A stretch of DNA of 44,578 nucleotides, from the NCBI GenBank assembly GCA_012270795.1, contig JAAXHO010000194.1, forward strand, positions 1-44,578, in the 5' to 3' direction. Every line of letters starts with the position of its first letter. Positions within the stretch are counted from its first letter, which is position 1. The notes beneath the pieces were generated by a model. It saw only the letters and a list, made by a program, of their open reading frames with translations. It did no database searches and was not told the DNA's origin. Positions 1 to 44,578 of the stretch are shown one piece after another. Made by a program: the position numbers and the translations under genes. This DNA comes from Candidatus Poribacteria bacterium. GTDB taxonomy: Bacteria; Poribacteria; WGA-4E; WGA-3G.

Positions 1-161
1 GCTATGGCGATGGCAATGGCTATGGCAATGGCTATGGCTATGGCAATGGCTATGGCAATGGCTATGGCAATGGCAATGGCGATGGCTATGGCAATGGCTA
101 TGGCAATGGCTATGGCAATGGCAATGGCGATGGCGATGGCGATGGCGATGGCGATGGCTAG
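1..161 (+). CDS. Gly-X repeat protein, C-terminal part (continues from 44486-44578)
   Basis: The reading frame enters at base 3 and runs to a TAG at 159-161. It encodes only alternating glycine with Tyr, Asn or Asp, ending in a run of Gly-Asp pairs. The DNA is a pure GGCNAT hexanucleotide array. Its N-terminus is the frame starting at 44486, so the gene is split by the ends of the contig. Simply joining base 44578 to base 1 breaks the frame, but overlapping the last 8 bases with the first 8 (both GCTATGGC) restores it and gives about 81 residues. The true repeat number is unknown. No function is known to me; low-complexity Gly-Tyr/Asn/Asp chains are usually disordered. Confidence 0.8.
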   Translation, partial: YGDGNGYGNGYGYGNGYGNGYGNGNGDGYGNGYGNGYGNGNGDGDGDGDGDG

Positions 162-42552: not shown

Positions 42553-42591
42553 AATTCATACTCCAATCTCATTCAGACAATAGAACCCCTA

Positions 42592-42690
42592 CTATCCACA
42601 CCCTGATAGACCCAACTGGCCAAGGCTTTACTGAATAGGTGATCCACACCCTCTCCGAAGAGAACTTTCACCAGTTCCCGTTACTTTCGT
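42592..42690 (-). ncRNA. Candidate structured RNA upstream of the homing endonuclease
   Basis: On the minus strand there are several stems: TCTC(TTCG)GAGA at 42663-42652 with the very stable UUCG tetraloop; AACTGG/CCAGTT pairing 42676-42671 with 42619-42614 around it; CTATC/GATAG at 42609-42592. The 11-bp ATCCACACCCT (plus strand) is repeated at 42594 and 42642. The UUCG loop points to the minus strand as the RNA. Could be a leader of the endonuclease-helicase transcript. Confidence 0.4.
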
Positions 42691-43033
42691 AGGAGAACCA
42701 ATCAGCAAAAGTCGATCGGCATAAAATACCGTCAATAAGTGCCCAGGTTAACAAGGGGTAGGTTAGAGCCTGGTGTTTCTTCCTGATGACTTCTCAGGGA
42801 CCTATGGCTTTGTCAGGGTAGCGTCCTGGTTCTTAGGTCGCGCTAATCAGGGAGCGCACTGCATCACAAACCCGACTATGAATTTGCATTGAAGAGAGTG
42901 CAGGTACTGATTTCCTGCATGGCGTTAATTTGAAGATATGTCCAGGACTAAGCCTGTTTTCTGCCTTAACTAATTAGCGTATCAGCTTACGCATTACTCT
43001 CATCAATACAAACTCAAAATCTAATCGTGATAG

Positions 43034-43063
43034 GTGACATCAAAGGAAAGGAATGTGTATAAT
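43034..43063 (+). promoter_or_regulatory. Promoter of the candidate small RNA
   Basis: -35 GTGACA (43034-43039) and a perfect -10 TATAAT (43058-43063), spacer 18 bp. Predicted start near 43070, directly at the first hairpin. No open reading frame follows. Confidence 0.65.
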
Positions 43064-43069
43064 TGACTC

Positions 43070-43180
43070 ATGTCGTGTTCGACGTTGAATCTTTCATTGC
43101 TTTGAATTTGACGTCGTGTTGCACCACGACATGACCTAATACTACGCCCTCTTGTCTGTCACTGCAAGGGGGCGTTTTCA
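43070..43180 (+). ncRNA. Candidate phage small RNA, about 110 nt
   Basis: Between a good promoter and a strong terminator. Arms CATGTCGTG (43069-43077) and CACGACATG (43125-43133) pair perfectly; inside, CGACGT (43080-43085) pairs with ACGTCG (43111-43116). Alternatively GTCGTG (43113-43118) pairs with CACGAC (43125-43130), so two folds compete for the same arm. No start codon with a ribosome site. It is oriented against all surrounding genes and antisense to the leader of the endonuclease-helicase transcript. Confidence 0.6.
43144..43178 (+). terminator. Terminator of the candidate small RNA
   Basis: 11-bp stem (43144-43154 ACGCCCTCTTG with 43165-43175 CAAGGGGGCGT, one G-T pair), 10-nt loop, then TTTT and a T-rich stretch. 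Minus strand lacks a T run, so it acts on the + strand only. Confidence 0.75.
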
Positions 43181-43200
43181 TTTCTTCCTGGTAATATTTC

Positions 43201-43551: not shown

Positions 43552-43592
43552 ATTATAAATCCTTAGTTAGTATCCAATTTCTTCACGTATGA

Positions 43593-43601
43593 ATTATACC
43601 A
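43593..43601 (-). promoter_or_regulatory. Extended -10 promoter of the MazG-like gene
   Basis: Minus strand TGGTATAATTC, like those at 589 and 35405. It lies at the edge of the GTTGC repeat cluster, 42 bp before the gene. Confidence 0.5.
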
Positions 43602-43611
43602 TTTCGGTGCG

Positions 43612-43747
43612 GCAACATCGTTGCGCAAATGTGGCCAGTCGTTGCGCAAATTCGGACACACGATGCCATCAGTGTTGCAAAACACCGAGCGATCATTCAC
43701 TGTTGCGGTTTAGTGTTGCAAAGTTCGTTGCAATTTTTTTGCAACAC
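43612..43747. repeat. GTTGC iteron-like cluster, candidate origin or control region
   Basis: The word GTTGC with following CAAA/AAA recurs: 43620-43629 and 43641-43650 (both GTTGCGCAAA, 21 bp apart, two helix turns), then 43674, 43702, 43715, 43727, with an inverted copy at 43739-43745. GTGTTGCAAA (43713-43722) and TTTGCAACAC (43738-43747) form a 10-bp inverted repeat. The cluster sits between divergent transcripts. Either replication iterons or protein-binding sites. Confidence 0.6.
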
Positions 43748-43757
43748 CGCTGATAAT
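43728..43757 (+). promoter_or_regulatory. Rightward promoter inside the GTTGC cluster
   Basis: -35 TTGCAA (43728-43733) and -10 GATAAT (43752-43757), spacer 18 bp, in front of the small gene at 43769. The -35 overlaps two of the repeats. Confidence 0.45.
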
Positions 43758-43768
43758 AAAGGGGTGTA

Positions 43769-43960
43769 TTGATAGTGGACATTAACAATAAGGGTCGAAA
43801 CGATGCACTGCATGTTATGCCAAACAATGACTTGCGAGATCACATCGATGCGCCACACTGTTGGTGCAAACCTGAATTCGATGCAGATTTTAATATCTAC
43901 ATACATAAATCGATGGATCGGAGAGAGGATTTTGAGGAGGGTAAAAGGAAATTATCTTAA
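43769..43960 (+). CDS. Conserved small phage protein, 63 aa
   Basis: The run HVMPNNDLRDHIDAPHCWCK and then NIYIHKSMDRREDFEEGKR is a pattern I remember from small proteins widespread in phages of Gram-negative hosts ('MPINDLREH...CWC'). Start is TTG at 43769 or GTG at 43775, after AAAGGGG. The Cys-x-Cys may bind metal. Function unknown. Confidence 0.65.
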   Translation: MIVDINNKGRNDALHVMPNNDLRDHIDAPHCWCKPEFDADFNIYIHKSMDRREDFEEGKRKLS

Positions 43961-44006
43961 TATGTAAATATTAGCAGTTTACAAATCATTTTTAAATATA
44001 CATAAT
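43961..44006 (+). promoter_or_regulatory. Early promoter with repressor operator (site C)
   Basis: -35 TTTACA (43978-43983), 17-bp spacer, -10 CATAAT (44001-44006). Operator arms TATGTAAAT (43961-43969) and GTTTACAAA (43977-43985) with 7-bp spacer, like sites A and B. Predicted start near 44013. Confidence 0.6.
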
Positions 44007-44011
44007 AATCT

Positions 44012-44112
44012 CGTCTTTGGTCGGACACACCACAAGTTAACAAAGCTCTGCTGATTATTCTTATGTCTACTTGTGGACCGACCAAGTTTGAATAGTCAGC
44101 AGAGCTTTTTTA
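44012..44112 (+). promoter_or_regulatory. Two-state leader RNA (attenuator) before the DUF6948-like gene
   Basis: Stem A: GGTCGG (44019-44024) with CCGACC (44078-44083) and CCACAAGT (44030-44037) with ACTTGTGG (44069-44076), 14 bp. Stem B: 44042-44060 with 44090-44108, 19 bp with one G-T pair, followed by T residues, an intrinsic terminator. Arms are interleaved (A5, B5, A3, B3). The linkers (4, 8 and 6 nt) are too short for both full stems to form as a pseudoknot, so they should exclude each other: A allows read-through, B stops. Confidence 0.65.
44042..44111 (+). terminator. Leader terminator hairpin
   Basis: 19-bp stem (44042-44060/44090-44108) followed by T at 44106-44111. It stands before, not after, a gene, only 3 bp from the ribosome site of 44125. 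Confidence 0.75.
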
Positions 44113-44124
44113 TTGGAGAAAATA

Positions 44125-44502
44125 ATGGATATTAATGATTTAACAATCGGACAAGCAAAAGAGCTTATTTCTATTTTTGGGACAAATAATAAATATGATT
44201 CACTAAATTCAATGATTGGCGAAAAAGTCATAATCAGAACTTATAGTGCCGGTGTATGGTTTGGTATTTTATCTGAAAAATCAGGTAATGAGGTAATTAT
44301 AAATTCTGCCCGAAGAATGTATAAATGGTGGTGCAAACAATCTATTTCATTAAGTGCCGTAGCAAATCATGGAATCAATCAAGATAAAAGTAAGATCATC
44401 GAAGCCATTCCATCTGTTTGGTTGGAGGCGATAGAGATAATTCCTTGTTCAGATATTTGCATAAAATCATTAGAAGGAGCACCTCATGTCAAAGCTGAAT
44501 AA
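44125..44502 (+). CDS. DUF6948-like protein, 125 aa
   Basis: Start ATG at 44125 after GGAGAA; a TTG at 44113 in frame is unlikely. Blocks KVIIRTYSAGVWFGILSEK, VIINSARRMYKWW, SLSAVANHGI and LEAIEIIPCS fit what I remember as the DUF6948 family of phage proteins. Function unknown. Its 3' end overlaps the Gly-X repeat gene by 17 bp, so both are expressed together behind the attenuator. Confidence 0.7.
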   Translation: MDINDLTIGQAKELISIFGTNNKYDSLNSMIGEKVIIRTYSAGVWFGILSEKSGNEVIINSARRMYKWWCKQSISLSAVANHGINQDKSKIIEAIPSVWLEAIEIIPCSDICIKSLEGAPHVKAE

Positions 44503-44578
44503 ACCTATTAAAAATGGCAATGGCTATGGCGATGGCTATGGCAATGGCTATGGCTATGGCAATGGCAATGGCTATGGC
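44486..44578 (+). CDS. Gly-X repeat protein, N-terminal part (continues at 1-161)
   Basis: ATG at 44486, AAGGAG six bases upstream, inside the end of the DUF6948-like gene. A short basic start MSKLNKPIKN leads into alternating Gly with Asn, Tyr and Asp, without end in the window. It continues at base 3 of the window, so the gene spans the contig joint. The GGCNAT array is prone to slippage in units of 6 bp, which keep frame. Confidence 0.8.
   Translation, partial: MSKLNKPIKNGNGYGDGYGNGYGYGNGNGYG

Follow-up and report, generated by a model that had tools for sequence, protein, structure and literature searches.

The window analysed here, a complete contig of 44,578 nt (IMG/VR 2681813478_000001) carrying phage genes, contains a leader in which two long stems have interleaved arms, the second stem resembling an intrinsic terminator (Table 1). 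It is proposed that this region acts as a phage-specific transcription-attenuation leader for the operon formed by a DUF6948 gene and a Gly-X dipeptide-repeat gene, a proposal that deserves about as much belief as doubt. If the leader is an attenuator, it would work by topology rather than through a shared arm. The gene pair behind it, however, seems to matter more than the leader itself, in that a protein of predicted Sm-like fold and an overlapping, pure Gly-X gene occur together across the phages of very different bacteria.

Table 1. Features of the leader and of the neighbouring genes (positions in the window)
Feature	Position	Strand	Remarks
Gly-X repeat gene, last part	1-161	+	stop TAG 159-161; across the presumed circular junction
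phrog_2864 gene	43769-43960		upstream of the leader
Operator-like inverted repeat TGTAAA-N9-TTTACA	43963-43983	+	overlaps the -35 box; putative function
Sigma70-like promoter TTTACA-17-CATAAT	43978-44006	+	10/12 consensus matches
Leader RNA (predicted)	~44013-44112	+	between the phrog_2864 and DUF6948 genes
Stem A 5' arm	44016-44037 (44016-44024 + 44030-44037)	+	folding
Stem B 5' arm	44042-44060	+	folding; within the stem A loop
Stem A 3' arm	44069-44086 (44069-44076 + 44078-44086)	+	folding; within the 29-nt stem B loop
Stem B 3' arm (terminator hairpin)	44090-44108	+	folding
U-tract TTTTTT	44106-44111	+	sequence; after the terminator-like hairpin
Shine-Dalgarno-like GGAG	44115-44118	+	sequence; outside stems A and B
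DUF6948 gene, 125 aa	44125-44502	+	PF22253, E 2.5e-28; predicted Sm/LSm-like fold
Gly-X dipeptide-repeat gene, first part	44486-44578	+	overlaps DUF6948 by 17 nt; continues at position 1

Architecture and folding of the leader

The four arms of the leader follow one another in the order A5'-B5'-A3'-B3', are disjoint, with no base in common, and are separated by linkers of 4 nt (44038-44041), 8 nt (44061-44068) and 3 nt (44087-44089), so that nearly all bases of the leader fall within stems. Stem A comprises 17 bp (44016-44024 with 44078-44086, plus 44030-44037 with 44069-44076), contains a 5x1 internal loop and has a folding energy of -21.2 kcal/mol; stem B comprises 19 bp (44042-44060 with 44090-44108), reaches -28.3 kcal/mol, encloses a loop of 29 nt and is followed by U6. 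The preliminary description had given the stems as 14 and 19 bp, which is correct for the second and too short for the first. It had also placed a terminator-like stem directly before the first gene, the 5' arm of this terminator inside the loop of the first stem, and the whole leader ahead of the DUF6948/Gly-X operon, and in all three respects the folding, the gene order and the PF22253 match bear it out.

Stem B is a stable, GC-containing hairpin with a U-tract directly after it, as expected of an intrinsic terminator. A loop of 29 nt is long for an intrinsic terminator, and stem B was not listed by a terminator scan confined to loops of 3-8 nt. Judging from the sequence, the U-tract is likely the 3' end of an RNA of about 100 nt.

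The minimum free energy of the leader is -36.3 kcal/mol (z = -5.1), none of 200 shuffles being as good, and among the 1780 windows scanned over the two strands its z-score shares first place. Moreover, with stem B held fixed, stem A was equalled in only 4 of 5000 dinucleotide shuffles, and a gapless search for interleaved pairs along both strands of the window ranked the leader site first. The structure is, therefore, real and beyond chance, even though the leader was picked out for looking unusual.

Folding of the growing chain gives the order in which the stems arise, with stem A complete by 44088 and the fold with stem B prevailing only from about 44103, in agreement with the earlier claim that the first stem forms earlier during transcription. 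Stem B is the more stable of the two by about 7 kcal/mol. When only nested structures are allowed, the path from A to B climbs from -21.2 to +5.1 kcal/mol (the bound of the search), that is, about 26 kcal/mol uphill.

A promoter-like sequence lies immediately upstream, from which transcription would start at about 44013; sites scoring 10/12 occur in this AT-rich stretch at a chance-level number, and upstream of DUF6948 relatives promoter conservation is only marginally above that of shuffles. The promoter had been called repressible, and an operator-like inverted repeat that could serve such control is indeed found at it, with one match against 0.04 expected and a chance occurrence in 4 of 100 shuffles.

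A possible attenuation mechanism

The sequence, the stems, their thermodynamics, the folding order and the gene order make up the observed part of the attenuation reading, from which transcription, termination efficiency, regulation and action in trans are inferred. In this mechanism, RNA polymerase would initiate at about 44013, its promoter probably being under the control of a repressor, and stem A would form first in the nascent RNA, keeping the 5' arm of the terminator in its loop. Formation of the full stem B would then stop transcription at the U-tract and release an RNA of about 100 nt, while a stem B delayed or blocked by the topology of A would permit read-through into DUF6948 and Gly-X, the ratio between termination and read-through depending on the persistence of stem A. 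Neither stem covers the Shine-Dalgarno-like site, and this speaks for regulation at the level of transcription, not of translation.

The topology admits two outcomes. With nested structures only, the steep path from A to B means that stem A would lock the polymerase into read-through. Since the arms of A and B are disjoint, however, a pseudoknot with both stems is possible, and stem A then need not prevent termination. Side-by-side helices A and B may just be possible in such a pseudoknot, as judged by rough geometry rather than by a computed model. Depending on which of these holds, the leader could be an antiterminator acting through topology or a terminator combined with a pseudoknot, and the earlier term "mutually exclusive" overstates the relation of the stems, which exclude each other only if the pseudoknot cannot form.

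In the released RNA, the 5' arm of stem A would be free and its 3' arm would lie within the loop of stem B, so that the RNA could pair with the next leader being transcribed. Such pairing could favour termination and would amount to autoregulation of the P4 CI type, so that action of the RNA of about 100 nt in trans is possible by analogy.

Distribution of the leader

The loci of DUF6948 relatives (79 viral, 13 genome and 4 phage) were examined in their upstream regions where the sequence sufficed. Upstream of about 90 of these relatives the leader is absent, and no comparable interleaved pair of long stems with a U-tract at the gene was found there. The exact arm patterns were found among viral contigs only in the present one, and blastn of the leader against phages and plasmids gave no relative, the plasmid hits being at chance level (E 0.5). 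Likewise, no relative was found in 73 genomes of the host order, a search of the closest DUF6948 records gave chance-level hits, and Rfam gave no match. Lack of conservation of stem A in related phages had been set beforehand as the result that would speak against a switch, and no such conservation was found in the DUF6948 loci or the collections searched. The leader, having no relatives in these collections, is thus specific to the present phage or to a very narrow group, and it is neither a conserved riboswitch class nor a general feature of DUF6948 operons. Its parts are ordinary, but the way they are arranged is unusual and not conserved.

Alternative explanations

This lack of conservation also favours a plain terminator with an incidental or structural upstream hairpin and no switch, and DUF6948 genes elsewhere manage without such a leader. 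Stem B would then keep the DUF6948 operon insulated from the preceding gene (43769-43960) or just bring a transcript to its end, and stem A would merely stabilise the RNA, through a pseudoknot or by protecting the 5' end. The disjoint arms, which permit A and B together, and the greater stability of B fit this explanation, but a stem A as good as that observed is improbable by chance once B is given, and the promoter-like sequence immediately upstream makes the leader look like a unit of its own. A plain terminator is on balance unlikely, although it retains an appreciable share of the probability.

The same promoter-like sequence, together with the terminator and the compact fold, could instead belong to an independent trans-acting phage sRNA of about 100 nt, similar to OOP or IsrK, with another transcript as its main target and read-through into DUF6948 as a side effect. 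A second candidate sRNA 0.9 kb upstream (43068-43180, z -6.5) suggests that the phage may use sRNAs. Nevertheless, the strongest duplexes that the free segments can form with other parts of the phage are not clear of background, and no near-exact copies of the arms were found in the host genome. An sRNA of this kind is held to be quite improbable. The upstream candidate (43034-43180, + strand) has a promoter GTGACA-18-TATAAT (11/12), nested stems and a classical terminator, and it sits in a stretch of about 650 nt (42553-43200) that has no clear gene.

Autogenous control, in which the Sm-like DUF6948 protein would bind its own U-tailed leader and shift termination or stability, has a low probability. 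Sm, LSm and Hfq proteins bind U-rich RNA, the leader ends in U6 just ahead of the gene, and complexes with poly-U and a U-heptamer are among the PDB fold matches of DUF6948, whose Sm/LSm fold is predicted by modelling. However, RNA binding by the protein is hypothetical, the sequence-level match to SM-ATX (E 0.019) lies below the cut-off, and the relatives retain the protein but not the leader, so this cannot be a general role of DUF6948.

A ligand-sensing riboswitch or a leader-peptide attenuator, suggested by two alternative structures ahead of a gene of which the second is a terminator, is very improbable and was rejected: almost all bases are in stems, leaving no unpaired region large enough for an aptamer, there is neither an Rfam match nor a homologue in the collections searched, and a Shine-Dalgarno site is missing from the sole ATG reading frame of the leader (44063-44095, 10 codons). 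Of the earlier "attenuator or riboswitch", attenuation stays plausible, and the riboswitch is not supported. A type III toxin-antitoxin system was also rejected, as no tandem repeats were found in the leader and the downstream DUF6948 protein is Sm-like rather than a ToxN-like endoribonuclease.

Comparison with known RNA systems

The attenuation leader proposed here can be compared with three known designs. In trp-type attenuators, an early stem likewise lies ahead of a terminator before the first gene, but the classical antiterminator and terminator share an arm, whereas here stem A uses neither arm of the terminator, the four arms being disjoint, and the leader has no leader peptide with a ribosome site.

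IsrK of Gifsy-1 is a terminated prophage sRNA that acts in trans and whose read-through form is an mRNA (PMC4825925). Both have their own promoter (here promoter-like), an intrinsic terminator (here predicted) and complementary segments for pairing in cis and in trans, and in both part of the transcripts reads into downstream genes (PMC4825925 for IsrK), which for the present leader would follow from the mechanism above. IsrK, however, acts on the translation of orf45/anrP and feeds the antiterminator gene antQ (PMC4825925). Its downstream genes carry other names and belong to other families, and the likeness drawn here is one of architecture.

As regards P4-type CI RNA, whether transcription ends prematurely is decided by complementary segments of a single leader, on which a short RNA made from that transcript can also act (PMC4825925). 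Such a complement is present here (A5' with A3'), and its action in trans would follow by analogy. P4 CI, in contrast, arises by processing of the transcript and has seqA and seqC as its pairing partners (PMC4825925), whereas here termination would generate the short RNA, and one interleaved pair makes up the complement. The present phage showed no P4-like genes.

The DUF6948 protein and its Gly-X partner

The DUF6948 protein is predicted, from a structure model with pLDDT 90, to adopt the Sm/LSm fold (Sm beta-barrel). In a fold search of the PDB, the top 50 matches were all Sm/LSm proteins or complexes containing them (E about 2e-3 to 8e-3, probability about 1, target TM-scores up to 0.75). 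The model shares this fold with Sm, LSm and Hfq proteins but differs from them in extra N-terminal helices and a C-terminal helix, the identity being 8-19%. At the sequence level, the SM-ATX match falls below the curated cut-off, and a sequence search of the PDB gave no match. No paper in the literature collection searched mentions DUF6948.

A Gly-X ORF lies directly 3' of the DUF6948 gene at 84 of 93 loci by one criterion and at 82 of 96 by a stricter one, and the two genes usually overlap, the shared stretch ranging from a few bases to some tens. At several of the exceptions, either such a repeat is present in a different frame or a stretch of the sequence is masked. Further Gly-X arrays are rare, with only 7 in 756 kb of DUF6948 loci (one being an antisense artefact of poly-GT), and control loci gave none in 201 kb. 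At the X positions Ser, Tyr, Asp and Asn predominate, and over the loci as a whole each of the four Gly codons is in use. Among the hosts or sources given for the loci are Sulfurovum, Nitrosomonas, Bacteroidaceae, Rickettsiales, Chlorobiaceae, Iodobacter, Vibrio and Pectobacterium. DUF6948 and Gly-X form a conserved and apparently undescribed pair in many unrelated phages.

The composition of the Gly-X protein recalls low-complexity, prion-like segments and, by analogy with these, suggests RNA-protein assembly. The hypothesis that arises from the pair is that of a phage RNA chaperone with a low-complexity partner. A fuller and rather speculative version, to which only a small probability is given, is that of an undescribed, widespread phage module in which an Sm-like RNA-binding protein would be co-translated with a prion-like protein of Gly with Ser, Tyr, Asp or Asn, perhaps forming RNA-protein condensates in infection and, in the present phage, placed also under a terminator leader of pseudoknot topology.

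As to the arrangement of the repeats, one locus (L044, 3213-4982) has four Gly-X ORFs upstream of the DUF6948 gene and none downstream, and extra Gly-X copies occur also in L023, L041, L061, L064, L071 and L120.

The phage contig and its other regulatory sites

The terminase and portal genes of the contig are P22/podovirus-like. Each end of the contig falls within one and the same Gly-X repeat gene, so the phage contig is most likely a circle that the assembler broke at this repeat. No integrase was seen among the genes examined, and because of this and of the apparent circularity the phage could exist as a plasmid-like, extrachromosomal prophage or else be a lytic phage from the culture. A search of the assembly for a 16S gene gave none. 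In the closest phages by terminase, DUF6948 is absent from the stretches examined, and a search for relatives of the phrog_2864 gene returned only the present contig.

A site related to the operator-like repeat of the leader promoter, TTTACA-N14-TGTAAA (631-656), lies in the region 277-656, between a - strand gene of 97 aa that has no family match (277-570) and the + strand early genes; this - strand gene is a possible repressor of both early promoters. In addition, GTTGCAA/TTGCAAC half-sites are repeated at 43570-43760, together with inverted copies, ahead of the + strand early genes, and are likely repressor operators.
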